Origin: a virus
Virus record (IMG/VR): IMGVR_UViG_3300001589_000054
Span: 1-37,257 of that record
Direction: 5' to 3' (one strand)
Length of the DNA stretch: 37,257 nucleotides
The notes under the pieces were generated by a model. That model did not search any database and was not told where the DNA came from. It saw only the letters and a list, made by a program, of their open reading frames with translations. The position numbers were made by a program, and so were the translations under genes. This document shows, one piece after another, positions 7,364-28,811 of this stretch (its first letter is position 1; the number at the start of each line of letters is the position of its first letter).

Positions 7364-7746
7364 CTTATTACCCTCACTTTATATTGTTGCTCTATGGTGT
7401 ATACCCGCTTATTGTTGATTTGTGCCTTGTTTGGAATCTCACTCAAGAAGTCTATCTGTTGGATAACTACGCCTTGGTTGGTGCCTGTATATCTATCGAG
7501 AGCTGCGCGGCTAAATCCCGCTAACAGCAAGCACTCTACGAGTGTCTGCGCATAGTTTGTTACCCTGGTAAATTCTTCATCAAGTGTGCTCACTCCATCC
7601 TTAGTTCCGTTGGGTTCTACATCAGTTACGTCCACGGTGATCGCTGGTAAATTCGTACCCTGTTGGCGTTCTATTGGGAATACCCGATCACTCACCACTC
7701 CTGCCACACTGACATCATTTTCCAATATGTTGATCACACCAATCAT
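7360..7746 (-). CDS. Tail completion protein (DUF3168-like)
   Basis: A 128-residue protein with an N-terminal helix followed by VVSDRVFPIERQQGTNLPAI and VDVTDVEPNGTKDGVSTLDE, then RVTNYAQTLVECLLLAG. This order is typical of the DUF3168 / SPP1 gp17-like tail completion family that joins the tail tube to the neck. Its neighbours fit: a gp10-like protein upstream with ATGA overlap and tail genes downstream. Confidence 0.75.
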   Translation of the reverse strand: MIGVINILENDVSVAGVVSDRVFPIERQQGTNLPAITVDVTDVEPNGTKDGVSTLDEEFTRVTNYAQTLVECLLLAGFSRAALDRYTGTNQGVVIQQIDFLSEIPNKAQINNKRVYTIEQQYKVRVIR

Positions 7747-8201
7747 AGCAGTTTATTGATTTCTCTTTCTAAAAACCTTTCTACTCTTTTTGATAATAGA
7801 GCAGAAGCTTCTTTTCCCCTTTTTTCCGTAGCCTTTAGTATCCAGTTTTTGAAAGTCTTTTTCAACGGCTTTACTTTCCTGTTGTAAACCAATACAGCGG
7901 CTTTAGCAGGGTTCGTAAAAAATCTACTCTCTGACTTATGAGCGAACTTGACATAGCCCCCTAAGCCACCAAGGACATTATTTGAGAAGTTTCTATATTT
8001 GACAGACCTCATTAGTTCTTCATCACTGTCTGCAAACATTTCATTGTCAACTAGTTCTCTCACTTCTTTAACTATAGGATTGCCTGCTGCTCTTGCTGCT
8101 GTCCTCCATAATTTTCTATCTTTAGCCTTTGTAGGCAGCTTTTTAATCATATTTAATAGCTTTTTCTCCCCTATTAATTGTATGGTTGCTCCCTTTGCCA
8201 T
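7743..8201 (-). CDS. HK97 gp10-like neck/tail protein
   Basis: A 152-residue basic protein. LWRTAARAAGNPIVKEVREL near residues 30-49 and the later FAHKSESRFFTNPAKAAVLV match the pattern of HK97 gp10-type proteins, in which a helical segment precedes a short beta domain. The family sits between head-closure and tail-completion genes, as here. It overlaps the upstream adaptor by one base (TAATG) and the next gene by four (ATGA). Exact role within the neck is known only for relatives. Confidence 0.75.
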   Translation of the reverse strand: MAKGATIQLIGEKKLLNMIKKLPTKAKDRKLWRTAARAAGNPIVKEVRELVDNEMFADSDEELMRSVKYRNFSNNVLGGLGGYVKFAHKSESRFFTNPAKAAVLVYNRKVKPLKKTFKNWILKATEKRGKEASALLSKRVERFLEREINKLL

Positions 8202-8551
8202 TATGCTTTTAATTCTCCTTGAAACATGATATATCCCTCTCTGCGCTGCTTCTCTACCAGTCCGACATAATAGTAGTCTGTCGTGCCTGACTCATATACC
8301 CGATAGGTGCCGTCCATTGCGCTTAGTGCGTTGGAGTAGCGGATCAGGTAGCTTTCCTTATTGGTACCCACTTCTTGGGCGGCTTCAAATCCCTCACGTC
8401 CTCCTTTGAGGATGCGCTTTGCACCTACTGTTGCGACCGTACTCCATGCATCTATCGACTCACTAGTCACTGCATCCCTTGTAGGGGCGTTGCTTTGGAT
8501 GACTAAGCGGATGTCGAGTTCGCCTGGGCGGAGTATTTTATTTTGCAACAT
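8201..8551 (-). CDS. Head-closure / head-tail joining protein
   Basis: A 116-residue protein opening with GELDIRLVIQSNAPTRDAVT and containing WSTVATVGAKRILKGGREGF, followed by a RYSNALSAMDGTYRVYESG segment. The pattern of a strand, a W-x-x-V-A motif and an I-R-Y-strand is that of phage head-tail joining (SPP1 gp16-like) proteins, which form the ring that seals the portal. It starts inside the upstream connector gene (14-bp overlap). Confidence 0.8.
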   Translation of the reverse strand: MLQNKILRPGELDIRLVIQSNAPTRDAVTSESIDAWSTVATVGAKRILKGGREGFEAAQEVGTNKESYLIRYSNALSAMDGTYRVYESGTTDYYYVGLVEKQRREGYIMFQGELKA

Positions 8552-9116
8552 GGTAAATCTTGTTTTTCCTAAATAAGAACTGCGAGCTCTGTGGCATCAT
8601 GTTTACCTGACTTCCCACTACTACATCTTGTCGGTTTTCAAAAAGATGAGTCAGCAACATTAGCATGCCAGACTTGTCCGTGCTTGGGATATCCGCTACC
8701 TCAGTATATCCAGCGACATAGGTCACTTCTATGGCATCGATACGGTCATACACCTCTGGCCACGAGTTGACGGCCTCTACTTTGGCTATTTTAGAAACTA
8801 TATCTACTCTATAGTTTGCATTAGACCATGTCTGCTGAACATTGTCCACATCATAGTATTTCAGCGTAGTTACTGACTGGACTGGGCCATAAATCAGCTC
8901 TATGTTGCTTGTTGGAAAATCATCCAATTGTGCCACTATAGTTTGTGTAAAAAAAGATCGGGCGGACTCATGTTCACCCATTTCGCGGGCAGTTTTGATC
9001 AACATGTTGATAAGATTGTCCTTATCATTATGGTTAATCTCCAAATGGTCTTTCGCTTCATTAAGTGTGATGGGCTCCGTAACAGGTGCGACCGTTCTTT
9101 TATATGAAATAGCCAA
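8538..9116 (-). CDS. Head-tail connector protein (gp6-like)
   Basis: A 192-residue protein. TEPITLNEAKDHLEINHNDK near residues 13-32 and LIKTAREMGEHESARSFFTQ mark the helical gp6-like connector fold (phiE125 gp8 / HK97 gp6 type), which binds below the portal as the first adaptor ring. It follows the capsid and decoration genes and precedes the joining protein. ATG at 9116 is directly adjacent to the stop of the upstream small gene. Confidence 0.82.
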   Translation of the reverse strand: MAISYKRTVAPVTEPITLNEAKDHLEINHNDKDNLINMLIKTAREMGEHESARSFFTQTIVAQLDDFPTSNIELIYGPVQSVTTLKYYDVDNVQQTWSNANYRVDIVSKIAKVEAVNSWPEVYDRIDAIEVTYVAGYTEVADIPSTDKSGMLMLLTHLFENRQDVVVGSQVNMMPQSSQFLFRKNKIYHVAK

Positions 9117-9338
9117 TTATTTCCCCTTTCCTTTTCGTTTCTCAGCTTTAGGATTCATAGCTGCTGTTTCTACATGCTTTCCTGACACTTCGATTTCCCT
9201 TTTTTCAGAAAATTCAGCGATAGAGTTGTTAAACTCCCCTTGAGGAGCTTCGATAATTTGGTCTTTGTCGAAATGGTAGGCTATGCCAGACTTAAGCCCG
9301 GTATAGCTTCCAAACAACTTCATTTTATAAAAGGCCAT
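9117..9338 (-). CDS. Small Lys-rich structural-region protein, unknown
   Basis: A 73-residue protein starting MAFYKMKLFGSYTGLKSGIA and ending in a very basic tail (KAEKRKGKGK). It sits between the decoration-like gene (one-base overlap) and the connector gene (no gap), so it is cotranslated with the head genes. It resembles in layout the 65-residue protein at 7166-7363: short beta domain followed by a lysine tail. Function unknown. Confidence 0.6.
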   Translation of the reverse strand: MAFYKMKLFGSYTGLKSGIAYHFDKDQIIEAPQGEFNNSIAEFSEKREIEVSGKHVETAAMNPKAEKRKGKGK

Positions 9339-9745
9339 TAGTTAGGATTAGATGGTAAATCCTTTGGAAATCCTTTCAATACATAGGCTCCGACTACTGC
9401 AGACCCTGTGCCACTGTCGGTGATTACTACACCTATTTGATCCTTGTTGCCTTTGTATCCCACGAAAATTTGCGTGTTAGCATCAGCGACTACTAAAGCC
9501 CTGCTTTGAGAAGTACCTGTACCGTCCAAATCTGACTCAGATATGTTTGCCCAAGCACCCGATCCATCACGCTCTTGATAAGTCACCACCAAGTCATCTG
9601 CGGTATGTGCTCCAACATCCACTACGAATGATGCGCCCTGGAAACCACTTACTATAGTTCCCACAATTGTTTGAGTCGATGTAACTGCTGCTTTTGCATG
9701 CAGTACCGCAAACCCTACTTTTGATTTTAAATCTATTGCTCCCAT
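9338..9745 (-). CDS. Probable head decoration / capsid-associated protein
   Basis: A 135-residue Ala/Gly/Thr/Val-rich protein with the regular beta pattern GASFVVDVGAHTADDLVVTY followed by QIFVGYKGNKDQIGVVITD. It is 25 bp downstream of the major capsid gene, where decoration proteins are usually encoded. The small size, lack of charge clusters and beta-sandwich look fit a capsid-surface protein. This is inferred from position and composition; it could also be a head-tail adaptor. Confidence 0.5.
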   Translation of the reverse strand: MGAIDLKSKVGFAVLHAKAAVTSTQTIVGTIVSGFQGASFVVDVGAHTADDLVVTYQERDGSGAWANISESDLDGTGTSQSRALVVADANTQIFVGYKGNKDQIGVVITDSGTGSAVVGAYVLKGFPKDLPSNPN

Positions 9746-13183: not shown

Positions 13184-13387
13184 TTATTTATTTATTTTCC
13201 TTTGGCGGGCTTTTCGGAAGGAATCGTAGCCGCTGTATCTAGTTGCACCAGTTAAGTATTTGTGCAGATCTTCGGTAATGCGGTATGCTTCTATATAGGA
13301 CCTATCCTGTGTCATATTCATCTCATACTGTTTGTTAAATTCAGCAAATGTCATCTGCCAACCACTCTTTAGTTTCAATTCTTCCAT
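13184..13387 (-). CDS. Small conserved-looking protein between TerL and portal
   Basis: A 67-residue basic protein (SGWQMTFAEFNKQYEMNMTQ ... DSFRKARQRKINK) that starts inside the last 13 bp of the large terminase gene, so it is translationally coupled. No known motif is recognised. Position between terminase and portal suggests an accessory packaging or head role, but this is only inference. Confidence 0.6.
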   Translation of the reverse strand: MEELKLKSGWQMTFAEFNKQYEMNMTQDRSYIEAYRITEDLHKYLTGATRYSGYDSFRKARQRKINK

Positions 13388-15036
13388 AATGCCACATAAA
13401 AATTATCGTCTTCTACTGGCATCGTAAAAGGCAGTAGTCCGTTAATGAGTGCATCGATGCCGTCAATCTTACCAAGTGCACTTTCTTTTTCTATTTTGCA
13501 AAGTCCCGACCTGTACTCCTTTAGGACTGAGTTGCCGATCATCCACCTTAGTACAGGGTTACCTCCGTGTCTCATTTTTCCTTCCATAATTAGTTCATAA
13601 AGCAAAGTCGTTGGCTGAGTAAGTTTGGTGGGTGTCTGTGGCAATTCTAAAGTCTCAAGGCCAGAGGCATTGAGTTGGTTGATGATTGAGATACAGTAGG
13701 CACCATCAGCGATGCAGTTATTAATCGTGAACTCTGCGCGCTTCTCTAGGATAAAGGCGGCTACTTCATCATGGTCTGTTACGTTGCCTGGAGTAGTGAA
13801 TACTAGTCCTTGATCGATCCAGTCGAGTAAATTTGAGTTTTCATTTTTGGCTTTATCTGATACCGTGTCCTCCGGTATCCAGAAGTATGGTATCACATTA
13901 TAAAAACCGTCATCGCTTTTGCCAATCAATACATACGCAGACCAGTCACGCTTCACGGCTATATCTAAGCCAGAGTAGTAAGTGGTGCATGGTTGCGGAT
14001 CTGCTTTGCTTTTTTGCCACAAGTGATCTTGAATCCATACCGTACTAGCGTTGGTCCATGTGTTGAGGTTTTTAGTTTTAAAGTCTACCTCTTTGCTGGC
14101 TCCCTCGTTTTTGGCTTCTGTGAATCTTTCATCTAGGTAGTGAGGAAATACACTTACCCCATAATTTGGATTGGACTTGCGCCACAGCTGGCTATCCTCC
14201 CAATTGTCGTTAATGTCTAATTCATAGATAATTGAAAGCTGACTATCATCGGTCTTTTTGCCAGCAAGTATATCTACTGATACCCTTCTGAGTTGTGAGT
14301 AACAAGGCCCTTCTTTTTTGAATCCAGCAGTTGTGATCACAATGAGTAGTGGATTTTCGCGCGCGCCTTGTCCTGATCTCATTACGTTGAGCAGTCCAGG
14401 AGTGTCGGCTTCATGGTACTCATCAATAATTCCAAGCGAAGGATTAAAGCCATCTTTGGTCTTTAGATCTCTGGACATGGCCTCTATTCGACCATTCTTT
14501 TGCGGATATGAGATAGCTGTACATTTATCTTTATATCGATATACTTTGATACTGCTGTCGTCCAAATAAGGGATAAAGTTGGGACTAATCTCTAAGATGT
14601 TGGCCGCGCAGGTGGTGCATATTTTAGCCTGATCTTCGTTATTGGCACCTATCAGTATCTGTGGACTTTGCTCTGAGTCAGCAAATAAATGAAATAGCGA
14701 AATACCTGCGCTAAATGTGGTCTTTGAGTTTTTTCTTGCGACTTGTATATAAGCCTTAGTTATCAATCGTCTGCCATCCCTTTTTAGACCGAAAATCTGC
14801 TGAAGTATAAATTTCTGCCAGTCTTCTAATATAAATGGTTTACCTCTCCATTTTCCCTCCCAGTGTTTGAGATTCTTTTCAAACCATGTGACTACTCTTT
14901 CGGCCTCTACGATGTCGTAAAATACATCTTCTCGATCTAGTAAATCCAAGAAGCGTTGTGCTGCTTGATAAATGAATTGTCCTACTACTTTCTTCCCCTC
15001 TAGTACACCTTTAGCGTACTCTTCCGCTGCTGTCAT
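13375..15036 (-). CDS. terL: Terminase large subunit (TerL)
   Basis: A 553-residue ATPase/nuclease that cuts and packages phage DNA. The ATPase domain shows a Walker A-like QVARKNSKTT at residues 98-107 and Walker B LGIIDEYHEA at 201-210, followed by the coupling motif VITTAGF. The RNase H-like nuclease domain begins YYSGLDIAVKRDWSA at about 353-367 with its first Asp, with later acidic positions at IADGAY and KIDGIDALINGL. Length and motifs fit the HK97-like Terminase_1 family. Unusually, the small subunit is not next to it but about 4.7 kb upstream, behind the cassette array. Confidence 0.95.
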   Translation of the reverse strand: MTAAEEYAKGVLEGKKVVGQFIYQAAQRFLDLLDREDVFYDIVEAERVVTWFEKNLKHWEGKWRGKPFILEDWQKFILQQIFGLKRDGRRLITKAYIQVARKNSKTTFSAGISLFHLFADSEQSPQILIGANNEDQAKICTTCAANILEISPNFIPYLDDSSIKVYRYKDKCTAISYPQKNGRIEAMSRDLKTKDGFNPSLGIIDEYHEADTPGLLNVMRSGQGARENPLLIVITTAGFKKEGPCYSQLRRVSVDILAGKKTDDSQLSIIYELDINDNWEDSQLWRKSNPNYGVSVFPHYLDERFTEAKNEGASKEVDFKTKNLNTWTNASTVWIQDHLWQKSKADPQPCTTYYSGLDIAVKRDWSAYVLIGKSDDGFYNVIPYFWIPEDTVSDKAKNENSNLLDWIDQGLVFTTPGNVTDHDEVAAFILEKRAEFTINNCIADGAYCISIINQLNASGLETLELPQTPTKLTQPTTLLYELIMEGKMRHGGNPVLRWMIGNSVLKEYRSGLCKIEKESALGKIDGIDALINGLLPFTMPVEDDNFYVALWKN

Positions 15037-15045
15037 TATGTGTTG

Positions 15046-15105
15046 TTAAGTCTCCAGGTGTGGTAGTTTAAACCCTTTTAGTTTCCATTTAATCGTTATT
15101 TGCAT
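15046..15105 (-). pseudogene. Truncated second copy of the 20881-21147 gene
   Basis: The ATG at 15105 and the next 11 codons (MQITIKWKLKGF) are identical to the start of the NUMOD4-like gene at 20881-21147, including the upstream leader. After codon 12 the sequence diverges and stops after 19 codons. It lies directly upstream of terL. It is best read as a remnant left by duplication or recombination. Confidence 0.8.
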
Positions 15106-15126
15106 ACCTTTATGGAGTATAGCGAT
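15069..15126. repeat. 58-bp perfect direct repeat, copy A
   Basis: These 58 bases are identical and in the same orientation to 21111-21168. The repeat holds the leader and first codons of a NUMOD4-like gene. Both copies are followed on the plus strand by GTTAG two bases later, i.e. both start at a CTAAC box on the minus strand. The two copies bracket about 6 kb holding the HNH gene, terS and the cassette array. Confidence 0.95.
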
Positions 15127-15129
15127 ACG

Positions 15130-15519
15130 TTAGGCAACATTGAGCACGTCCCACAAATCAGAAGAGGTCTTTAACTCAAAATCTTTACCCTGTATTTTAA
15201 CACAGCCTTTAGAGTACTTTAATCCAAAATCAAGCTCCCACATATAATACTCAATCCAACTATCTTTATGGGTGTCATTCATTGCTATTTGTAGCACTTT
15301 TACTAGTTGATTTTGTAACCAATGATTTGCATAATTTGAAATGTAGTCATTAGGTAAAATCACTCTAAAGGCTTCACTACATTTAGAATCGTGCCTATGT
15401 TGTTTCTCAATTTCGTTTATCGCTTCAATAAATAATTCTCTTGAAAAAACAACTTTGCCTAACAATGTATATAATTCAGGCTTACTTTCTGATTCTTTGT
15501 TGTCTATTTGATTATTCAT
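15130..15519 (-). CDS. 129-residue cassette protein, unknown function
   Basis: A 129-residue protein. The part from VFSRELFIEAINEIEKQHRH through EAFRVILPNDYISNYANHWL to SWIEYYMWELDFGLKYSKG looks like an intact small globular family seen in phage accessory regions, but I know no function. The first 23 residues (KESESKPELYTLLGKV) resemble the N-terminus of the unrelated methyltransferase next to it (KNTSESNGLYPLLGTV), and the leaders match too. That N-terminus is encoded by an attC-like site, so the original gene probably began near residue 24. The stop codon lies inside GCCTAACG, another attC-type box. Confidence 0.75.
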   Translation of the reverse strand: MNNQIDNKESESKPELYTLLGKVVFSRELFIEAINEIEKQHRHDSKCSEAFRVILPNDYISNYANHWLQNQLVKVLQIAMNDTHKDSWIEYYMWELDFGLKYSKGCVKIQGKDFELKTSSDLWDVLNVA

Positions 15520-15585
15520 AATTTTGTTTTTATCTATTAATATTTGGCATAATTCACGCCCGAAATCATATACTAACCGTTAGGT
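15457..15585 (-). repeat. attC-like site (129 bp) with start codon in its loop
   Basis: Minus strand: outer boxes CCTAAC and GTTAGG are complementary; an unpaired spacer follows; then GTATATGATTTCGGGC (plus 15558-15573) pairs with GCCTGAATTATATAC (plus 15467-15481) over 15 bp with two G-T pairs and one extrahelical T. The about 75-nt loop contains the leader TAGATAAAAACAAAATTATG and the first codons of the 129-residue gene. Box, spacer, stem with extrahelical base and variable loop are the defining parts of integron attC sites. Confidence 0.7.
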
Positions 15586-15598
15586 ACAATGCTAGTGC

Positions 15599-16384
15599 TT
15601 ACCATAAACGTAGTTGCTTTTTAAAGTTGGTAAAACGCTTTTCTTGTTTTAAATAATATTCTTCGTCAATTTCAAAACCAGTAAAGTCGCAATTTGCTAA
15701 ATCAGCTTCAATCCTAATCGAACCACCGCCAATGTGAGTATCTAATAACTTCATTCCTTCAAAACCGTAATCAGCAATTAATTTTTTATAAAGAAGTCTT
15801 GGCTTATGGCAGGGATGAATACGTTTCTCATTTAGTTTTTTATTTCCTTGTTGTGTCATTGGTTCACTTAAACTTTTAGCTTGGCACATCCCTGCCCACA
15901 ATAAAGGCAACTCAATCTCTTCATCAATCATAGAGCAATAAGCAAGTTCATACTTCTTGAAACTCATTCCTTCAGCAACGCCTTTATTCCACTTTATTCT
16001 TCCATTGCCTAATCCATTCCAATTCACATATTCTACACCAAAAATTATTTGCTGTTTACTCACTCTTTGTAATTCATCAAAGTATTCTTGAGGCGGTGTT
16101 TCTTTATCCCATTCCTTTTGGGTATATGGCTTTTTGTTTTTATTGCCATTTAGTCTAGTTCCATTTTTCTGCTTAACTGTTGTTTTTGTTTCTTTTAAAT
16201 AAGCCATATTCCCAACGTCAATTCCATAAGGTATATCGCAAATTGCTAAATCAAAATAATTGTCATAAAAGCGTTTTAATCCTATCATACAGTCCTCGTT
16301 ATAAACCAAAGAACGCACAGTGCCTAACAATGGGTATAATCCATTGCTTTCACTTGTATTTTTGGATGCTATATGCTTACTCAT
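15599..16384 (-). CDS. DNA methyltransferase (N4/N6 amino-type)
   Basis: A 261-residue amino-methyltransferase. Motif IV is DIPYG at residues 50-54 (a variant of DPPY), and the AdoMet-binding motif I is LLDTHIGGGS at about 213-222, after HPCHKP at 190-195, so the order is catalytic motif first (beta-like arrangement). The core begins at VYNEDCMIGLKRF, residue 27; the first 26 residues are an extra N-terminus encoded by the attC-like site 16322-16450. It probably modifies phage or host DNA, perhaps against restriction; no partner endonuclease is adjacent. Recognition sequence unknown. Confidence 0.85.
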   Translation of the reverse strand: MSKHIASKNTSESNGLYPLLGTVRSLVYNEDCMIGLKRFYDNYFDLAICDIPYGIDVGNMAYLKETKTTVKQKNGTRLNGNKNKKPYTQKEWDKETPPQEYFDELQRVSKQQIIFGVEYVNWNGLGNGRIKWNKGVAEGMSFKKYELAYCSMIDEEIELPLLWAGMCQAKSLSEPMTQQGNKKLNEKRIHPCHKPRLLYKKLIADYGFEGMKLLDTHIGGGSIRIEADLANCDFTGFEIDEEYYLKQEKRFTNFKKQLRLW

Positions 16385-16450
16385 AATTTTGTTTTTATCT
16401 ATTAATTTGGTTGCTTAATAACGCAACGTATCATACCCTAACCGTTGTAA
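16322..16450 (-). repeat. attC-like site (129 bp) with methyltransferase start in loop
   Basis: Minus strand: left box TTACAAC (plus 16444-16450) and right box GTTAGGC (plus 16322-16328). Inside, GGGTATGAT-A-CGTTGC pairs with GCAATG-G-ATTATACCC over 15 bp with one mismatch and G-T pairs. The loop carries the same 26-bp leader plus ATG as the site at 15457-15585 (plus 16381-16406 equals 15516-15541), and the two sites are exactly the same length. The methyltransferase start codon lies in the loop. Confidence 0.65.
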
Positions 16451-16459
16451 AACATAAAA

Positions 16460-16633
16460 TTAAAAACGCTTATCATTTCTAATCATAACGGCAACATACG
16501 TTTCTACCAACACCCTAAGCTCTTGGGTACATGTGTCCAAGTCTGGAATTTTATCTCCATCTAATTTGCCGTTATTTATTTCCTTAGCAATGTGGTCGAT
16601 TAATTTCTCTAATTCAAGTTGTGTCCTTTCCAT
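16460..16633 (-). CDS. 57-residue cassette ORF
   Basis: A small acidic helical protein (MERTQLELEKLIDHIAKEIN to MIRNDKRF) between two attC-like sites, on the same strand as its neighbours. Start ATG at 16633 follows the A-rich leader AAAATTAAAAAC. No homology is recognised; codon use and amphipathic pattern look genuine. Confidence 0.55.
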   Translation of the reverse strand: MERTQLELEKLIDHIAKEINNGKLDGDKIPDLDTCTQELRVLVETYVAVMIRNDKRF

Positions 16634-16653
16634 GTTTTTAATTTTACGATTTT

Positions 16654-16974
16654 ACAACACTGCATAAACGTAATGCTTAGTGAGGTGCTATAAATAAAGT
16701 TTAGTGTTTTAAATACCATAATTAAAAATCACTTTCATAAAAATAATCGTCATTATGTTTGTATGTGTTTTTAACTATGTTACCGTTTTCAAAAGTTACG
16801 GTTATCGTCCGCTTGGTTTTGTTCGTAACCATTCCGTTACCGTTTTTACCACTTTCTACTTTTTCGCCTATTTTAACATCTTGTATCGTTCTCATATTTT
16901 TAATTATTAGTTTATTGTTTAATTCAAATTTTGTGCTTTCAAAGTCGCACTACGTTTATGCTTTACGTTAGCAA
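16654..16974 (-). repeat. Split attC-like site surrounding a small ORF
   Basis: GCATAAACGTAATGC at 16662-16676 (plus) is the inverted complement of GCACTACGTTTATGC at 16947-16961 with one difference that still allows G-T pairing. Outer boxes are ACAAC next to the first and GTTAGC next to the second. The 270 bp between the arms hold the whole 57-residue ORF 16722-16895. Either the ORF sits in an enlarged attC loop, or these are halves of two related sites. Confidence 0.4.
16722..16895 (-). CDS. 57-residue cassette ORF, beta-type small protein
   Basis: MRTIQDVKIGEKVESGKNGN followed by GMVTNKTKRTITVTFENGNI and KHNDDYFYESDF: a compact, likely beta-barrel (SH3- or KOW-like) sequence by pattern, but no family is recognised. 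It lies inside the split inverted repeat 16654-16974. Confidence 0.55.
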   Translation of the reverse strand: MRTIQDVKIGEKVESGKNGNGMVTNKTKRTITVTFENGNIVKNTYKHNDDYFYESDF

Positions 16975-17310
16975 TTAGATTGCATTTGGCAGTTCTTGCC
17001 AATAGTCAGGCATTGCACCTCCGTACCACTTAGGCTCATCTGTATTACAATCTCTAGTGCGCCAGCAAATGAATTGGCTTTCTGAATCTTGGTGCAAACA
17101 AAGCACTCTCTTTTCATCGTCTGGAAGCTGATCCAAGCAAGCAATCCACTTGCTAACACACGGTATCGCAGATTTTTGAGACTTAGAGTGTGCCTCGTTT
17201 GACATTTCATTCATTATCTCCACCATTCTACCGTAGGTTATTTTCTCGGTAATTACTTGCTTTATGAGATAGTGAATGTCTGCTACTTTAAATACTTTTA
17301 TCATAATCAT
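16975..17310 (-). CDS. DUF551-like cassette protein
   Basis: A protein of 111 residues if it starts at ATG 17310 (an upstream TTG is less likely; ATG at 17304 is an alternative). The C-terminal half reads WIACLDQLPDDEKRVLCLHQ and ends PKWYGGAMPDYWQELPN, matching the layout of DUF551-type domains: W-x-x-x-x-x-x-LP near the start and W-x-x-LP at the end. Such proteins are common in phage accessory regions and have no known function. A second short relative is encoded at 32234-32452. Its stop is followed by GCTAACG, the left half of an attC-like box. Confidence 0.7.
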   Translation of the reverse strand: MIMIKVFKVADIHYLIKQVITEKITYGRMVEIMNEMSNEAHSKSQKSAIPCVSKWIACLDQLPDDEKRVLCLHQDSESQFICWRTRDCNTDEPKWYGGAMPDYWQELPNAI

Positions 17311-17352
17311 TTGTCGTTTTAATCGTCTCAAAAACCCTCGATACCTACATCG

Positions 17353-17580
17353 TTACCCACAATTAGCCAACACACGCTTTATGTAGTTGTCAAATACTTC
17401 ATACGCTTCTCGCATTTCTTTTATGTCGTAGGAGAATTGAACCTGTCTTGCGTATTTAAACGCTTCTTTCATTTCAGCCATATATTTAGACGTGACTATT
17501 GTTTTACCTTCTTTCGGTTTTGGTATAGAATCCAGCCCAGATATTACGCTATTCAGTATTTGCTCTTTATTTAATGCCAT
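17353..17580 (-). CDS. Helical cassette protein, unknown
   Basis: 75 residues from ATG at 17580 (MALNKEQILNSVISGLDSIP); the frame is open further upstream but that part is the attC-like site, so this start is preferred. Predicted mostly helical with EMKEAFKYARQVQFSYDIKE. The stop codon forms part of GGGTAACG. No function recognised. Confidence 0.6.
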   Translation of the reverse strand: MALNKEQILNSVISGLDSIPKPKEGKTIVTSKYMAEMKEAFKYARQVQFSYDIKEMREAYEVFDNYIKRVLANCG

Positions 17581-17592
17581 CGCTTTATAAAA

Positions 17593-17690
17593 GTGGCTAA
17601 CACAAAATATAGTGAATAGCCGATTAAACATTTGTTTTTCATAGCTAAGTTTTAGGTGTCGGCTACTCACCATATTCAAACCGTTGTAGC
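17593..17690 (-). repeat. attC-like site, 18-bp stem
   Basis: Minus strand AATATGGTGAGTAGCCGA pairs with TCGGCTATTCACTATATT (plus 17659-17676 with 17606-17623): all 18 positions pair, two as G-T. The loop is 35 nt. Outer boxes are GCTACAACGG on the left and TGTTAGCC on the right. This is the size and architecture of an integron attC site, placed between two small ORFs. Confidence 0.75.
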
Positions 17691-17704
17691 ACATACGCTC
17701 ACTA
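17686..17704. repeat. 19-bp repeat shared with 33231-33249
   Basis: GTAGCACATACGCTCACTA is identical at both places. On the minus strand each copy covers the stop codon of a small gene (TAG) and runs into an attC-type AACG box. It links the 17-kb array with the accessory block at 32-33 kb. Confidence 0.85.
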
Positions 17705-17839
17705 ATAAGTCAAGTAACTGCGGAAGTATTGCAATCCTTTTCCGTAACCCCAATACCATCTATGGCTTATTGTGTACATTCCGAGACATCCATGTTCTAC
17801 GTAAGCCCATTTTTGCTGTCTGTTGAACCTAATTTTCAT
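17702..17839 (-). CDS. 45-residue cassette ORF, aromatic-rich
   Basis: MKIRFNRQQKWAYVEHGCLG then MYTISHRWYWGYGKGLQYFR and SYLTY. Very rich in Tyr, Trp and Arg. It sits as a single gene between two clear attC-like sites (17593-17690 and 17853-17956), a cassette of about 260 bp. Function unknown. Confidence 0.55.
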   Translation of the reverse strand: MKIRFNRQQKWAYVEHGCLGMYTISHRWYWGYGKGLQYFRSYLTY

Positions 17840-17852
17840 ATCGTTCGCTTTA

Positions 17853-17956
17853 CGATGCTACAACACACAATAAGGCAAATGACCTTTGGATATGTAGCGG
17901 ATTAAAATGACCAATTTTAGGCAGGTCACATTGCTTTATTTACATCGTTGTATGCC
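17853..17956 (-). repeat. attC-like site with bulged stem
   Basis: Minus strand AATAAAGCAATGTGACCT (plus 17923-17940) pairs with AGGTCATTTGCCTTATT (plus 17869-17885) with one extra base and one G-T pair; loop 37 nt. Outer boxes TACAAC and GTTGTA are perfectly complementary (left CATACAACG, right GTGTTGTAGC). It separates two 45-residue ORFs. Confidence 0.75.
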
Positions 17957-17957
17957 A

Positions 17958-18095
17958 TTAAAGTAACCAACATTTTATGCCTTTTTCTTTCATCAACTCA
18001 ATAAAGTATTTAGCGTGTTTCTTTTGCCACCTTCCGTAAAATGTGCGAAATGTGAATCCGTAATCTTTATTTTCTACTTTTACAAGTGTTTGCAT
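17958..18095 (-). CDS. 45-residue cassette ORF
   Basis: MQTLVKVENKDYGFTFRTFY then GRWQKKHAKYFIELMKEKGI and KCWLL. It lies between the attC-like sites 17853-17956 and 18111-18169; its stop is two bases from the next site. Basic with aromatic residues; no family recognised. Confidence 0.55.
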   Translation of the reverse strand: MQTLVKVENKDYGFTFRTFYGRWQKKHAKYFIELMKEKGIKCWLL

Positions 18096-18110
18096 ATTCT
18101 AAAATTTAAC

Positions 18111-18169
18111 GGCATACAACACAAAATAAATTGAATTGAAACGCCAATTTATTAATAACGTTGTATTCA
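18111..18169 (-). repeat. Minimal attC-like site (about 57 nt)
   Basis: Outer boxes ATACAAC and GTTGTAT are perfectly complementary (7 bp). After an unpaired spacer, AATAAATTG pairs perfectly with CAATTTATT (plus 18145-18153 and 18125-18133), with an 11-nt loop. This is the shortest and cleanest of the sites and overlaps the TGA of the upstream gene. Confidence 0.75.
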
Positions 18170-18418
18170 ATTAACCTTAAAGTCCTTGCAATCCTCATTA
18201 TCGCACCCTTTACCAACATAATCGCCACAATCATTGCAATAGCGTTTTTGGTCGGCTAACTGTTCGCTTCGCAATACAACATCGGGCATAGAACAGTTTT
18301 TTACTTGCCTTGCGTATTCTTCCATCATGTCGACAATATATGTTGTGTCGAGGTCGGCTATGTATTGTTTGCCTATCCGTAACATTCTTGTTCTGATTAT
18401 CTCTTCTGCTATTTTCAT
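18167..18418 (-). CDS. Small Cys-rich cassette protein, possible zinc ribbon
   Basis: 83 residues. The C-terminus reads RYCNDCGDYVGKGCDNEDCK, i.e. CxxC and CxxxxC spacing that could bind one zinc. The N-terminal half is helical (EEIIRTRMLRIGKQYIADLD). Regulatory or nucleic-acid binding is possible; unproven. Confidence 0.6.
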   Translation of the reverse strand: MKIAEEIIRTRMLRIGKQYIADLDTTYIVDMMEEYARQVKNCSMPDVVLRSEQLADQKRYCNDCGDYVGKGCDNEDCKDFKVN

Positions 18419-18473
18419 ATAATTAAGTTTAGTGTTTCAATTCCGTAAAAAACCGATTCTATACTCGTATTCG

Positions 18474-18725
18474 TTAGCTACAATGCCTAACAAACATTCT
18501 AAACTTCTTCTTACTATCTGTAAATTCTACAAATCCATTTTCCATAAGTAGCATTTTCATTGTAAATTCTTTACCATTGCATTTTACACCTTCTATTGGT
18601 TCATCATCATCAAACTGAAAGTATAATGCTACCTGTTCATTTGGCACAATGACACTGCTACTAACATCGGCTATATTCAATGCCGAGCTTTCGCCTAAAT
18701 TTAAGTTTTTGTTTTCTTTATTCAT
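18474..18725 (-). CDS. Cassette protein, unknown
   Basis: 83 residues, acidic, with YFQFDDDEPIEGVKCNGKEF in the middle. The stop codon is the TAA of AGCTAACG, an attC-type left box. The N-terminus (LGESSALNIADVSSS) is composition-poor and overlaps sequence that may be an attC right half. No function recognised. Confidence 0.6.
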   Translation of the reverse strand: MNKENKNLNLGESSALNIADVSSSVIVPNEQVALYFQFDDDEPIEGVKCNGKEFTMKMLLMENGFVEFTDSKKKFRMFVRHCS

Positions 18726-18737
18726 TTTATCTGTTAT

Positions 18738-18839
18738 TTAAGTTAGTGTATTTATTACCCTTTTTAAAATGCTCACTACATTTTTGGGCGTATCTTGCTT
18801 TAGTTTTGCTTTAAACTTTAGCTCGGTATAGTATCCCAT
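18738..18839 (-). pseudogene. Probable 5' fragment of a MGYYT-type phage gene
   Basis: ATG at 18839 opens MGYYTELKFKAKLKQDTPKN and stops after 33 codons. The opening resembles phage accessory proteins that start this way and are usually well over 100 residues, so this looks like a truncated cassette gene. The family assignment rests on memory of the N-terminal pattern only. Confidence 0.45.
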
Positions 18840-18865
18840 ATCAAATTCTCGTTTTAAAACCGCCC

Positions 18866-18966
18866 AGTTGCTAGCAATGTGTATAGCAAATAAGCCAATC
18901 TAGTTTATATTTAATTTCAAAATTTATAGTGTGGCTTACATTGCCATACACGCATAACGTTACCAA
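18866..18966 (-). repeat. attC-like site with bulged 18-bp stem
   Basis: Minus strand TGTATGGCAATGTAAGCCA (plus 18932-18950) pairs with TGGCTTATTTGCTATACA (plus 18880-18897) with one extrahelical base and one G-T pair. The left box is TGGTAACG, six bases after the stop of the upstream gene; the right end is TTGCTAGCAAC. Confidence 0.65.
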
Positions 18967-18971
18967 CAATG

Positions 18972-19415
18972 CTACGTTCGGCCTCTAATGTAGCTAGTTA
19001 GCATATTCCGTTCGGCTGCCAAATTTGCACTTTGCCTTTCTGCTTTCTTTATAATTTTAATACCTCTTTTAGTTTCGTAAAGAAGTCCCCAATTATCTGG
19101 CACTTCTTCTTCTTTTATCAAGTTCTCAGGGCATAAATAAAATCGCAATTCGCCTACTCCATTAGTGCAAATTTGTCTAAATGGCTTTTTGAAGTCATGC
19201 AGGAAGTCTGACCGTTGAACTTTAACTTCAATCATAACTGAGCACCAACTACACCAACCAATTACATCGGGCATTTCTTTTTCTACTTGAGTAAAAAGTT
19301 CAACTGCTACGGTTTGGCAATTAGGTATTAGCACATTTTGCGAATGTTTATTAAGCCAATTACCTCCTCTCACGCATAGGTTCTTATGTGTAGATGTGTC
19401 TGGGGTTTCCCGCAC
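18972..19415 (-). CDS. PD-(D/E)XK nuclease-like protein (MmcB-like)
   Basis: 147 residues from a GTG start at 19415; a later GTG (GTG AGA GGA GGT) is an alternative. The core EKEMPDVIGWCSWCSVMIEV is followed by KVQRSDFLHDFKKPFR, giving the D...ExK pattern (PDVIGW, IEVKVQRSDF) of PD-(D/E)XK nucleases such as MmcB-like proteins. A phage DNA repair or self-defence nuclease is plausible; activity unproven. It is the first gene of the array after the terS-proximal pair. Confidence 0.65.
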   Translation of the reverse strand: MRETPDTSTHKNLCVRGGNWLNKHSQNVLIPNCQTVAVELFTQVEKEMPDVIGWCSWCSVMIEVKVQRSDFLHDFKKPFRQICTNGVGELRFYLCPENLIKEEEVPDNWGLLYETKRGIKIIKKAERQSANLAAERNMLTSYIRGRT

Positions 19416-19424
19416 AGTTGGTAA

Positions 19425-19676
19425 CTATTTTTGTATTTCCTTAGTTGCACCACAATTATTGCACCGCCTAACAGTTTCAACGTGGTTACCTCCCCATCTA
19501 TAACATTTGCTGACATCATTTAAATCAACATGCGTTTTTAACTTGTTGCTTACGAACTTGTCAAAGCTGTCGTTAAGGGCACTAAGTACTCGATCGCGAT
19601 AATAATCATCGTCAAACCATATTGATTCTGTAATACTTTTAAAGTCTTCTTTTGTAATATTCATTTCTATCATCAT
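19425..19676 (-). CDS. Small protein with C-terminal CxxC
   Basis: 83 residues (MMIEMNITKEDFKSITESIW). The end VETVRRCNNCGATKEIQK has one CxxC and an upstream Cys at SKCYRW, so zinc binding is possible. It starts 26 bp after the small terminase stop. Function unknown. Confidence 0.55.
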   Translation of the reverse strand: MMIEMNITKEDFKSITESIWFDDDYYRDRVLSALNDSFDKFVSNKLKTHVDLNDVSKCYRWGGNHVETVRRCNNCGATKEIQK

Positions 19677-19702: not shown

Positions 19703-20068
19703 TTAACTTATGTTTGGTTTATTTTTCTTCTCCGAAAAGGCAGATATCTTCTCTCTATCAGCTGACGTCAACCCATACTTCGCACCTATACTATCTACAA
19801 TCTTATTGTACTTGTCCATAACTGTGACGTGACCTGTTACCTGAGTGTATCCATTTATAGTTTCTTGCACTCCATTTTTTTTCATTTTTGCGTTTTTGCC
19901 GCTAGGAAAATTTATCTCTTGAGAACTCCTTTGCACCATATCAATTGCATTTGCAAGATCGCTTAGTCTAAATGAATCAATATCAATTAGTCCTACTTTT
20001 TTCACATGTTTGATGAGTTGTTTAAATATGACAATCCCATCAGGAGTTAAAAACGGTTGTGGTTTCAT
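19703..20068 (-). CDS. terS: Terminase small subunit, P27-like
   Basis: 121 residues. DIDSFRLSDLANAIDMVQRS, then ETINGYTQVTGHVTVMDKYN and IGAKYGLTSADREKISAFSE: the order of a helical DNA-binding core, an N-G-x-x-Q-V/P stretch and the terminal GLTxADR(x)K motif is characteristic of P27-family small terminases. It overlaps the upstream gene by four bases (ATGA). It would recognise the packaging site and recruit TerL, which here lies about 4.7 kb downstream. Confidence 0.8.
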   Translation of the reverse strand: MKPQPFLTPDGIVIFKQLIKHVKKVGLIDIDSFRLSDLANAIDMVQRSSQEINFPSGKNAKMKKNGVQETINGYTQVTGHVTVMDKYNKIVDSIGAKYGLTSADREKISAFSEKKNKPNIS

Positions 20069-20880: not shown

Positions 20881-21147
20881 TTAAAAAGGTAATATTTTAA
20901 TAATTGATCTATCAGGCATTGATATTGGAGTGACCGACACTAGAATATTCCTCATCTGCTTTATACTCCAAGTTTCTTTAGCTCCATATCTATACAATGT
21001 AAATTGATTCCTGCTGTTTTTATTTATGAATCTATAATTTTTAAAATGCTGATGATTTGTTGTATAATTATTACGAATTACCCATCCTTTATTAGTCACA
21101 AAATAATTGCTAAACCCTTTTAGTTTCCATTTAATCGTTATTTGCAT
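20881..21147 (-). CDS. NUMOD4-like DNA-binding protein
   Basis: 88 residues. IKWKLKGFSNYFVTNKGWVI looks like the NUMOD4 motif (W-x-x-x-x-G-x-x-x-Y-x-V-x-N-x-G), usually found in front of HNH homing endonucleases; the following NQFTLYRYGAKETWSIKQMR fits the strand-helix after it. The catalytic HNH part is missing here, though a free-standing HNH gene follows. The start and leader are duplicated at 15046-15126. Confidence 0.55.
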   Translation of the reverse strand: MQITIKWKLKGFSNYFVTNKGWVIRNNYTTNHQHFKNYRFINKNSRNQFTLYRYGAKETWSIKQMRNILVSVTPISMPDRSIIKILPF

Positions 21148-21168
21148 ACCTTTATGGAGTATAGCGAT
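21111..21168. repeat. 58-bp perfect direct repeat, copy B
   Basis: Identical to 15069-15126. This copy contains the leader and first codons of the intact NUMOD4-like gene, so it is probably the original. Confidence 0.95.
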
Positions 21169-21228
21169 GTGTTAGCTGCAAGCACTATTTCACCGCTTTG
21201 TAGATACTTTAGTGCCATTAGCCCATAA

Positions 21229-21960: not shown

Positions 21961-22401
21961 TTAGTCAAGCTTAAATCTGTACTTGCTATTGATCCAGTTC
22001 TTAACCTTTGTATCTACTGGCAGTTGATGCACATAAGGCATTTGAGAATGAACAGTAAACCATTCTTCCCACTCCTTGGTTTTATCCATGTCCGGCTCAC
22101 TTGAGCATTGCATATCAAAACTGTCTACCATCCATTGACCATTATCATCTTCCTCCCATCCTTCAGCTACGTAAGTGAGCCTACATTTGCAGTATGGGCA
22201 AGCATTGTTGAAGACAAATTCCTTATGTGCATCAACAATCTCAAATGAACTCTCCACAACATCAGATAACCGCAATGGCTCTGATGCCATTTCATAAGCT
22301 AACTCACACATTTTGTTAAGAGCTTCTACAGTCTCAGGACTTACGTCTTTATCTACGTGAGCACTCCCATGTTTTAGAGGTATTCGTTTCATTTCTTTCA
22401 T
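21961..22401 (-). CDS. Cys-rich protein with zinc-ribbon-like CPYCKC
   Basis: 146 residues from ATG at 22401 (MKEMKRIPLKHGSAHVDKDV). FNNACPYCKCRLTYVAEGWE supplies a CxxCxC cluster, with a later Cys at DMQCSS. It lies downstream of the truncated gene near attP. Function unknown. Confidence 0.55.
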   Translation of the reverse strand: MKEMKRIPLKHGSAHVDKDVSPETVEALNKMCELAYEMASEPLRLSDVVESSFEIVDAHKEFVFNNACPYCKCRLTYVAEGWEEDDNGQWMVDSFDMQCSSEPDMDKTKEWEEWFTVHSQMPYVHQLPVDTKVKNWINSKYRFKLD

Positions 22402-22452
22402 GATTATTCTGCTTTTAGTTGTCGCCACTTCGGTTATCCACGCCCGTTAGCA

Positions 22453-22667: not shown

Positions 22668-22852
22668 ATTAACACCTTTACTTAACACCAAGTAAGAAAA
22701 TAAGGTGATACGATCAGTATTGCAGGTTTTCCTTGAGGGTTCGAACCCTTCCGAGTGCGCTATTTTCCCTGCTTTAATCAGTACAATCAGTATTTAAACT
22801 TACATTTTCCATACATTACTTAACACTTTAGCTTAACACCTTGCTTAACACC
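22668..22852. other. attP region with five integrase arm-type repeats
   Basis: TTAACACC-type repeats, read on the plus strand: ATTAACACC at 22668, CTTAACACC at 22681, CTTAACACT at 22819, GCTTAACACC at 22831 and 22843, two on one side and three on the other side of a tRNA-like core. The last two lie within the integrase coding end. A second repeat, ATCAGTATT, occurs at 22713 and 22786. Repeats flanking a core next to int are the layout of lambda-type attP sites. Confidence 0.75.
22735..22758 (+). other. attP core: tRNA 3'-end identity segment
   Basis: GAGGGTTCGAACCCTTC folds as a tRNA T-arm with loop TTCGAAC, followed by CGAGTGC as the 3' acceptor strand. A tRNA ending this way begins GCACTCG, as many Bacteroidota tRNA-Arg genes do. 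The phage therefore probably integrates into the 3' end of such a tRNA gene. There is no complete tRNA here. Confidence 0.65.
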
Positions 22853-24141
22853 TCTTCATCGATTTTAAACATTGATTGACCTAACAATTCTTTTGTAATT
22901 TCTTCTTGCTTCAAATAATGCTCTCTAATCATCGTAGCTCCAGAGTGTTTAATACCTATTGACTTATCACCTAACATTATAGTAAGTCTAGTGATATATG
23001 CTTTTCTAAGATGCTTGAATGTTATACCTTGTCTATTACCGGCTGCTTTCCAGAAGTGAGTAAAAGCCCTACTCATATGCAACTTGAGCAATTCCCTATT
23101 CACTACCTCGCTGGCAAATACAAAGCTTTCACTCCCCATATTTTTCATAAATCCTAGCTTCTCTAATAATTTGGCCAAATCCGTAGTGATTGGGGTTTTA
23201 CTGACATATTCCTTACTATTTTTGAGTCTATTTACTTTGTGATTTGGAATATTTATATAATTAGTATCTATATTTGACCACTTTAGAAGTACTATACCAT
23301 CTGCTCTCTCTCCTGTGAGTAACGCTGCATAGAATAACTCCTTCCAGTATGGTTTATAATGATTAAACTTGAGTATCCTCCTATCTTTTCCTTGCTTCTT
23401 CTCATCCCATCCGTTATTGTAAGAGATAACCTTGATGAGTTTTTCAAATTCAACCTCCTCAACTATATCTACTTTTTTAATAACTCTTTTCTTAACTATG
23501 GCATTGAATGGGTTATCAATCTCGTGACCAATTTTTTTGATAATATATTCGAAGAAGTGAGTCAATCCTTCTATATAATGATTATAAGTCTTTGGAGCAT
23601 AGTCTAGCAGTGTGCTATGAAAAAATCCTATATGTTCTTTATGTATCGCTCCTATAGCCAGTTTACTAATATTCACTTGGTTGTCTTTGAGGACTTTTAA
23701 GAAAGCTTTTATGTACCTCGTCTGTGCATCTATGTGACGCTTAGTCAATTTTTTCAATTCATAGTCCGCGCAGTCAATATCGTTTAGATAATCAATATAC
23801 ATAGCCGCACACTCAACAAGCAATATTGGTTTACTTTTCTGGGCAACTTCTGTAATTATATAATAGTTATTATCCTTTAGTTCTTGAATATACGCCTGAT
23901 GCAGATTCCATACTGCATTAAAATTCCTCTCTTTATAACTTCTTATACAGTCCGTTCTTTTAGTGATATTATTCCATATCCTAGATTGGAATACATGACT
24001 ATCTTTATAACTACAATTTTTAGCCAATACATTATTTCTATTGCAATTAGCCTCATTGTTAGTAACAGTCTTTTTACATCCTTTTCTCATACAATACACA
24101 TGGAGGCCGTGACCTTTGTATTTGTCTGGAACTTTAATCAT
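22828..24141 (-). CDS. int: Tyrosine-recombinase integrase
   Basis: 437 residues. Catalytic region: LLTGERADGIVLLKW with Arg279, TFKHLRKAYIT with Arg379 (the first position of the HxxR box is Lys376), IKHS with His399 and REHYL with Tyr409 as nucleophile. The N-terminus has a Cys-rich stretch (CMRKGC, ANCNRN, KNCSYK) that may be an arm-binding zinc-ribbon-like domain. It integrates the phage at the attP beside it. I see no integron-type (IntI) insert between the catalytic boxes, so it is not the cassette recombinase one would expect for attC sites. Confidence 0.9.
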   Translation of the reverse strand: MIKVPDKYKGHGLHVYCMRKGCKKTVTNNEANCNRNNVLAKNCSYKDSHVFQSRIWNNITKRTDCIRSYKERNFNAVWNLHQAYIQELKDNNYYIITEVAQKSKPILLVECAAMYIDYLNDIDCADYELKKLTKRHIDAQTRYIKAFLKVLKDNQVNISKLAIGAIHKEHIGFFHSTLLDYAPKTYNHYIEGLTHFFEYIIKKIGHEIDNPFNAIVKKRVIKKVDIVEEVEFEKLIKVISYNNGWDEKKQGKDRRILKFNHYKPYWKELFYAALLTGERADGIVLLKWSNIDTNYINIPNHKVNRLKNSKEYVSKTPITTDLAKLLEKLGFMKNMGSESFVFASEVVNRELLKLHMSRAFTHFWKAAGNRQGITFKHLRKAYITRLTIMLGDKSIGIKHSGATMIREHYLKQEEITKELLGQSMFKIDEEVLSKVLS

Positions 24142-27730: not shown

Positions 27731-27979
27731 TTATCTTACTATTATAGGTTTGGTGAGCCCTAGACAACTGCACTTGTGGAGGTCTACTTTGCCCCTTGTA
27801 CAACTAGTCCATGCTTCTATTACTTCTTCTTTGCCACAAGTGCAGTTGTAGAGCTTTTCAGTCTTGCGCTGCGTGAGCGTGATTATATGACCTTTATGGC
27901 TAAAAAAGGCCATATCTCCATACATCCTATAGTCTGGGTCTAGCATTTTGATAATATCGGTAAGTTGTTGGTCAAGCAT
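27731..27979 (-). CDS. Cys-rich small protein
   Basis: 82 residues. KLYNCTCGKEEVIEAWTSCT and VDLHKCSCLGLTKPIIV supply CxC, a Cys and CxC, a possible zinc site. It overlaps the upstream repeat-protein gene by 8 bp. Function unknown. Confidence 0.6.
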   Translation of the reverse strand: MLDQQLTDIIKMLDPDYRMYGDMAFFSHKGHIITLTQRKTEKLYNCTCGKEEVIEAWTSCTRGKVDLHKCSCLGLTKPIIVR

Positions 27980-28811
27980 TGTTTTTAGATTCTTGTATTA
28001 ACACAGTTGAGGTGTTTATTATTACTTGGTTATTTTCAACGGAAATACAATTAAATAATATTTTTTTCATCCAAGAATAGTATGCTGACCTTGCTGACCT
28101 TGCTGACTCTGCTGCTGACTCTGCTGCTGACCATGCTGCTAACCATGCTGCTGACCTTGCTGACTCTGCTGCTGACTCTGCTGCTGACTCTGCTGCTGAC
28201 CATGCTGCTGACCATGCTGCTGACCTTGCTGACTCTGCTGCTGACCATGCTGCTGACCATGCTGCTGAACTTGCTGCTGACTCTGCTGCTGACTCTGCTG
28301 CTGACCATGCTGCTAACCATGCTGCTGACCTTGCTGACCTTACTGCCTCAATATCTATTTGATCATATGAAGTTTTTAAAATATTTGCGCATCGTACAAT
28401 AGCTTTATATTGATCAGAGTCTTTTTCAGTAAAAGTTATTTGCCCTCGATTTTCATCCATCAATAGTTTGTATTGAAATTCACTTTTTACCTTATTTAAG
28501 TCAACGCCAACAGGCAACACTTCAATAGCGTCATATGGAAATGATTTCCATTCGTCTGATGGAAGACCTTCGTATATTTTTTCAGTGACCGCAGCATACC
28601 AAAGTGGTAATCCATATTGTTGAGAGGCTTTTTGTAGTGTATTATCTTCTGATTGAGTCATGCAACCATAAAAGCATCCTCGCTGTTGACCATTTTTGGT
28701 AAAATCGTTGATAAGCCAATTGCCACGAATATAAGCATCCATTTCCTGATGTTTTTTTGTATATTTTAGCAAGCTAGCTTTCAATTTGGGTTCTGAACAA
28801 AATGTTTTCAT
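27972..28811 (-). CDS. Protein with Ala/Ser/Trp 4-residue repeats
   Basis: 279 residues. The N-terminal domain (residues 1-130) has RGCFYGCMTQSEDN, QYGLPLWYAAVTEKIYEGLP and YDAIEVLPVGVDL, a pattern I associate with phage and bacterial proteins of unknown function that often carry Ala-rich repeats. Residues about 158-243 repeat the unit S-A-A-W/E/R without gaps, predicting a long helix with a Trp/Glu/Arg stripe. The last 30 residues return to normal sequence. Possibly a rod-like or oligomerising segment. Function unknown. Confidence 0.7.
   Translation of the reverse strand: MKTFCSEPKLKASLLKYTKKHQEMDAYIRGNWLINDFTKNGQQRGCFYGCMTQSEDNTLQKASQQYGLPLWYAAVTEKIYEGLPSDEWKSFPYDAIEVLPVGVDLNKVKSEFQYKLLMDENRGQITFTEKDSDQYKAIVRCANILKTSYDQIDIEAVRSARSAAWLAAWSAAESAAESAASSAAWSAAWSAAESARSAAWSAAWSAAESAAESAAESARSAAWLAAWSAAESAAESARSARSAYYSWMKKILFNCISVENNQVIINTSTVLIQESKNNA
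28082..28346. repeat. 12-bp tandem repeat tract in coding DNA
   Basis: About 265 bp made of variants of GCTGCTGACTCT and GCTGCTGACCAT (plus strand). The tract encodes the SAAx repeats of the overlapping gene. Near-identical units suggest recent expansion or slippage; several other frames are open only because of the repeat. Confidence 0.9.

Follow-up and report, generated by a model that had tools for sequence, protein, structure and literature searches.

What fills the 4.67 kb that separate the terminase genes terS and terL in the IMG/VR virus record IMGVR_UViG_3300001589_000054, and by what means could it have been acquired? The record (hereafter the window, i.e. the whole stretch of 37,257 bases that was analysed) encodes the terminase large subunit (TerL), portal and capsid proteins, a phage integrase (22828-24141) and a repressor-like protein, therefore it most likely represents a temperate tailed phage. 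The gap between the two terminase genes (19702-15037, minus strand) is filled with short minus-strand open reading frames (ORFs). Very probably, it is a row of integron-type gene cassettes with attC-like hairpins, which would be exchanged by a recombinase of a Bacteroidota host.

The gap was scanned with a pattern consisting of an AAC box, a 3-8 nt spacer, a stem, a loop, a 1-5 nt spacer and a G[TC]T box. Eight sites with scores of 27-42 were found on the minus strand and one on the plus strand; 60 dinucleotide shuffles of the gap gave 0.25 sites on average and 1 at most, and the rest of the minus strand (32.6 kb) contained 2. Site 3 falls under the scan threshold, its support being a covariance model (described below) and its boxes. 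In total, nine attC-like hairpins tile the gap within 3.5 kb (Table 1). All five sites named by an earlier, sequence-only reading of this DNA (sites 1, 3, 4, 5 and 9) are present, and four that it had not listed (sites 2, 6, 7 and 8) have to be added. Each of the nine combines an imperfect hairpin with outer ...AAC / GTT... boxes, as is expected of attC, and the unpaired spacers measure 5-6 nt and 3-4 nt. The 3' box, previously given as GTTxxx, has the form GTT[AG]NNN with a single exception (GCTAGCA at 18869). Rfam yielded no match in the window.

The order of the boxes bears the integron signature. Reverse-complementing the 3' box of a site gives the 5' box of the site that follows: six of the nine transitions agree at 4/4 variable bases and three at 3/4, which gives 33/36 (boxes permuted among sites: mean 14.1, P = 2.5e-5), as against only 17/36 for the two boxes inside single hairpins. 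The outer boxes are thus complementary, as the sequence-only reading had claimed, but between neighbouring sites and not within one hairpin. Cassette exchange at G^TT predicts precisely such complementarity between neighbours, since the two ends of a cassette are joined in the free circle; in the window, as in attC arrays, the core box in front of a cassette is complementary to the inverse core box closing that cassette. A first scan, in which near-full pairing of the boxes within one hairpin was required, did not separate the real sequence from shuffles; this requirement was wrong, because it is neighbouring sites whose boxes match.

When 22 sites of this and other phages were aligned, the boxes, the spacers and a stem with a G-T pair conserved in 18/22 sites were apparent. 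Across this set 88% of the stem cells are paired, and 53 two-sided changes were counted (20.8 in shuffled and 3-19 in slid versions), although part of the set was picked by pairing, which favours this result. The covariance model R1 was built from the same 22 sites, therefore its scores in the window are training scores wherever a site was used. With default filters R1 missed the sites of Polaribacter phage P12002L, which were found with the filters off.

The window phage has its relatives among Bacteroidota phages: some from Cellulophaga and Flavobacterium have DNA in common with the array (site 5 is 82% identical to a site of Cellulophaga phage phi18:3), and one TerL relative sits in a Flammeovirgaceae metagenome-assembled genome (MAG). 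In the related contig L001 (TerL 66% identical) the array is absent, because terS (7651-7998) ends where terL (7995-9647) begins; one such site is carried at another place (4501-4625). Relatives of the family-A ORF, the last one of the array, occur in the contigs L180-L183, whose DNA is 85% identical across window positions 15128-15479 and no further. The family-A homology goes no further than the core box in six phages, and different DNA lies beyond. Furthermore, L180 and L182 are 99.9% identical to L181 over 5.0-5.4 kb, until L181 diverges at the base after GCCTAACG and then resembles L183; insertion and deletion in L181 are indistinguishable, as this contig ends 318 bases later. Both observations correspond to the cassette-sized differences among relatives that the sequence-only reading had proposed to look for. 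Its central claim, an integrase-less attC cluster inside a packaging operon, is therefore supported by the box rule, the cassette differences at core boxes, the absence of the array from L001 and the bacterial arrays described below.

The phylum to which the Flammeovirgaceae MAG belongs (a GTDB phylum, which may include groups outside Bacteroidia) was sampled with 395 genomes, 41 of which gave R1 matches. The surrounding chromosomal regions contain arrays of hairpins, mostly of ~131 nt and usually separated by a single ORF, and the box rule holds there as well, with a full match in 46/61 neighbours versus 5.6% for random pairing and 11/91 within hairpins. A search of ~85,000 genomes with a DNA pattern derived from the commonest phage site gave no match.

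Many of these chromosomal arrays adjoin tyrosine recombinases of 270-385 amino acids (aa) without the additional domain of the integron integrase IntI, and in the genomes G206, G234 and G142 a recombinase of 354-380 aa heads the array. Two geometries were observed: a long recombinase oriented in the direction of the cassettes and a short one (272-306 aa) oriented away from them. A profile built from four array-linked proteins (threshold 1e-65) matches 111/395 genomes, i.e. 30/41 of those with R1 matches and 81/354 of the others, and a comparison of positions placed an R1 site within ~15 kb of a profile-matched gene in at least 17 genomes. Against the IntI family model TIGR02249 four tested proteins score 188-211 bits (cut-off 265), with the match split in two pieces. 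Visual inspection of the array-linked recombinases did not reveal the additional-domain motif (ALxRKYPNAxxEWxWQxVFPQ region), and on this count they are not IntI. In a phylogenetic tree IntI forms one clade (support 100/99); the array-linked recombinases lie outside both IntI and Xer and do not form a single clade. In the open-licence PMC literature we found no description of recombinases without the additional domain at the head of integron arrays.

Phage and chromosomal cassettes differ in polarity. In known integrons the ORFs lie opposite the better-folding strand of the hairpin, and this holds for 65/74 ORFs of the chromosomal arrays. In the phages all 35 of 35 cassette ORFs lie on the better-folding strand, so that the typical arrangement occurs in 0/35. 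The chromosomal contig L111, with phage polarity in 3/3 ORFs, may be a prophage.

Four ORFs of the window begin in a hairpin loop (Table 1). In seven loci (15519 and 16384 of the window, L033, L047, L048, L049 and L050) the ATG lies exactly 56 nt upstream of the 3' box and the ORF reads through this box. As the start codon is located in the loop, unrelated proteins come to share one leader peptide: its variants, about M-x-KETETKPELYTLLG, head different proteins, including the methyltransferase of the window. For the latter and for the family-A protein, the matches to family models lie mainly from residue 26-27 onward. The L033 and L048 proteins resemble ASCH and HNH proteins by eye. The idea that the loop start codons are a gift to the ORF of the next cassette was dropped. 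It is more likely that a hairpin and the ORF following it form one unit, because homologous hairpins retain their 3' box and ORF while the 5' box varies with the neighbour. The cassette, whose cut site is deduced from these comparisons, is therefore most likely built as hairpin - 3' box - ORF - ...TAA, with the hairpin in front of its ORF.

From the above we infer recombination itself, as well as the strand that is cut. Each hairpin would act as a single-strand recombination site, in which the outer 7-nt boxes and the unpaired spacers of 5-6 and 3-4 nt flank a stem carrying G-T pairs or one extrahelical base, and a cassette would span one core box to the next. In several cassettes the loop would also hold the ribosome-binding region and the start codon, and the 3' arm would encode the first residues. 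The phage, which has no matching integrase, would gain and lose cassettes by means of a recombinase from its Bacteroidota host, for which the candidates are (i) those IntI-like recombinases that lack the additional domain and adjoin chromosomal arrays of the same site family or (ii) canonical IntI. The benefit to the phage may likewise be deduced from the cargo, as the methyltransferase suggests anti-restriction.

As had been claimed, no integron integrase is encoded in the window: TIGR02249 found no IntI in the record, which is thus not a complete integron (IntI with its additional domain, plus attI). The tyrosine recombinase at 22828-24141 is a phage integrase (phrog_1) with no NCBIfam match; it was set aside as the cassette enzyme, since it resembles an ordinary phage integrase. 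As nine attC-like sites (two within a few kb would suffice) stand in a record that lacks IntI, the gap corresponds to a cluster of attC sites lacking integron-integrases (CALIN), attC identity being judged by our own criteria and not by the official model.

Several points weigh against the proposed exchange of cassettes by a Bacteroidota recombinase. R1 took the place of the official attC covariance models, a single mismatch occurs in three of the nine box pairs, and the support for site 3 is weak (E 0.45). All putative recombination junctions come from related contigs, with none documented in the window phage. The window phage and the other phage records searched yielded no such recombinase: its profile gave nothing in 12 viral records and 3 phage genomes, in a search that had no positive control. 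Finally, as the ORF polarity in the phages differs from that of the chromosomal cassettes, the chromosomal recombinases may not serve the phage pool.

Canonical host IntI, equipped with the additional domain, might move the sites, the other Bacteroidota recombinases being bystanders; the array would still be a cassette array. IntI is found above the family cut-off in 105/395 genomes of the phylum, and one attC of phage P12002L recombines with IntI1 in published work (PMC9892861). We nevertheless regard this as rather unlikely, since no IntI match at 1e-50 was obtained in G206, G234 and G142, whose arrays sit on near-whole-genome contigs, and the other type of recombinase is located near arrays in no fewer than 17 genomes. 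It is improbable, too, that the cassettes spread by homologous or illegitimate phage recombination between similar hairpins, with the boxes as relics of an older integron origin. Such events are in line with the mosaicism of phage genomes, the mutual similarity of the hairpins, the lack of an integron integrase in the phage and a duplicate, at 21.1 kb, of ~55 nt of sequence past the terminal box. However, the L180/L182 versus L181 junction falls at a core box, as do the ends of homology in six phages, and box complementarity would decay without continued site-specific exchange. That the hairpins are only RNA elements at gene junctions (for translation coupling, processing or weak termination) is very unlikely, for although the better-folding strand is the transcribed one in phages (8/9 window sites) and the start codons of several ORFs stand in the loop, always 56 nt from the 3' box, an RNA role predicts neither the match between a 3' box and the next 5' box nor chromosomal arrays of opposite polarity beside recombinases; RNA and recombination roles are compatible with each other.

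Read as a cassette array, the gap is a variant of a known phenomenon, i.e. integrase-less phage attC clusters. Qi et al. (2023) reported 17 phage CALINs and showed that 5/6 of the tested phage sites recombine with IntI1 (PMC9892861). Phage CALINs are therefore already described; the sequence-only reading knew of no case in a terminase operon, and in the main text of that paper, as far as it was read, none is placed between terS and terL. The paper describes integrase-less attC clusters with small ORFs and methyltransferase cassettes, as in the window, and in P12002L the sites belong to the same family as the window sites and lie on the same strand as the ORFs, so that both site family and polarity are shared. 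The window differs in the location of its nine or more sites between terS and terL of a temperate phage. The loop start codon, the box rule and the consistently inverted polarity are not described for phage CALINs in the portions of PMC9892861 at hand.

Sedentary chromosomal integrons of the Vibrio type, which contain IntI, likewise consist of same-strand, one-ORF cassettes and hairpins with complementary core boxes. In contrast, the additional domain of IntI is missing from the Bacteroidota recombinases beside the arrays, which stay below the IntI cut-off and outside the IntI clade; the phage array has no integrase, and with respect to the hairpin its ORFs occupy the other strand. Fused cassettes of class 1 integrons also present reading frames and translation signals at cassette junctions; according to the abstract of PMC4670013, they arise by partial or total loss of attC, whereas here the start codon lies in an intact hairpin, through which the reading frame continues.

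It seems an evenly balanced possibility that Bacteroidota possess an integron class of their own, with IntI-like recombinases without the additional domain, and that their phages hold a separate cassette pool, in which attC precedes the ORF on the coding strand and supplies the start codon, so that exchange at core boxes can swap N-termini. Surveys have found few complete integrons in Bacteroidota (PMC9024848), and the additional domain is held to be necessary for the integrase, judging by the title of a 2001 paper by Messier and Roy (reference in PMC2426708). If the recombinase acts on these sites, integrons exist without the supposedly necessary domain and are missed by searches keyed to IntI. 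The phage-borne attC clusters are here linked to a source, as the same site family occurs in long Bacteroidota arrays beside a recombinase. This would also offer a concrete route by which small accessory genes, e.g. an anti-restriction methyltransferase, enter a packaging operon cassette by cassette.

Table 1. Terminase genes, hairpin sites (5' box / 3' box), core boxes and cassette ORFs of the window, in the direction of the minus strand
Feature	Position	Strand	Evidence and remarks
Terminase small subunit TerS	19703-20068	-	phrog_83, E 6.6e-7; upstream limit of array
3' core box GTTACCA	19419-19425	-	Sequence; reverse complement TGGTAAC = 5' box of site at 18965
Probable further cassette ORF, 147 aa	18972-19415	-	phrog_631 4e-37, phrog_5429 4e-13; similar to phage DNA-repair-like families
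Site 1, TGGTAAC / GCTAGCA	18869-18965	-	Scan 38; R1 60.5 bits (training site)
Cassette ORF, 83 aa, function unassigned	18474-18725	-	
Site 2, AGCTAAC / GTTGTAT	18274-18479	-	Scan 38; ATG of ORF 18418-18167 within loop
Cassette ORF, 83 aa, function unassigned	18167-18418	-	Starts within loop of site 2
Site 3, ATACAAC / GTTGTAT	18114-18166	-	R1 24.1 bits, E 0.45; box match 4/4
Cassette ORF, 45 aa	17958-18095	-	
Site 4, ATACAAC / GTTGTAG	17858-17953	-	Scan 27; R1 28.8 bits (training site)
Cassette ORF, 45 aa	17702-17839	-	
Site 5, CTACAAC / GTTAGCC	17595-17689	-	Scan 41; R1 64.2 bits (training site)
Cassette ORF, 74 aa	17353-17577	-	Start downstream of 3' box
Site 6, GGGTAAC / GTTAGCA	17151-17358	-	Scan 42; ATG of ORF 17310-16975 within loop
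Cassette ORF, 111 aa	16975-17310	-	phrog_924 2e-6
Site 7, TGCTAAC / GTTGTAA, 322 nt	16652-16973	-	Scan 35; 57-aa ORF (16722-16895) within loop
Cassette ORF, 57 aa	16460-16633	-	
Site 8, TTACAAC / GTTAGGC	16322-16450	-	R1 96.8 bits (training site); start codon 16384 within loop
Cassette ORF, DNA methyltransferase (N6_N4_Mtase)	15599-16384	-	PF01555 9e-11; ~20-aa leader encoded by site 8; main PHROG matches from residue 27
Site 9, ACCTAAC / GTTAGGC	15457-15585	-	R1 105.9 bits (training site); start codon 15519 within loop
Cassette ORF 'family A', 129 aa	15130-15519	-	Stop codon TAA inside terminal core box
Terminal 5' core box GCCTAAC	15129-15135	-	End of array
Terminase large subunit TerL	13375-15036	-	PF03354/PF20441; downstream limit of array

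No good hairpin was found for the 3' core box at the upstream end of the array. At the other end, the ~55 nt past the terminal core box (~15080-15128) duplicate the start of gene 20881-21147 on the minus strand (copy at 21110-21170), as if a truncated cassette copy closed the array. Outside the terminase gap, near ORF 21961-22401, another attC-like hairpin (22254-22452, minus strand, score 32, TGCTAAC / GTTGTGG) is possibly a second small array. Elsewhere in the window, the minus-strand ORF 27972-28811 (279 aa) contains a long stretch of SAAWSAAE/SARS repeats.

The chromosomal arrays showed further peculiarities. In one genome several hairpins share the end box GTTGAAC (L145 6261-6391; L149 3271-3405 and 9786-9916; L104 7645-7775), and in L145 and L149 they are followed by an IS91-like transposase and a tyrosine recombinase; the core box may be what this element targets. 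Near-identical short hairpins are repeated in L113 (102 nt, at 8356, 9613, 11069 and 18594) and in L234 (91 nt, at 1820, 5444, 7235 and 8641), mostly shortly upstream of an ordinary site, and are perhaps gene-less cassettes. A small treble-clef-like protein is encoded divergently beside three long recombinases (L144 17365-17748, L146 14949-15338, L147 3769-4140), the one in L146 being DUF2116-like, slightly below the cut-off, and in L145 its place beside the recombinase is taken by a gene resembling that for single-stranded DNA-binding protein (SSB).

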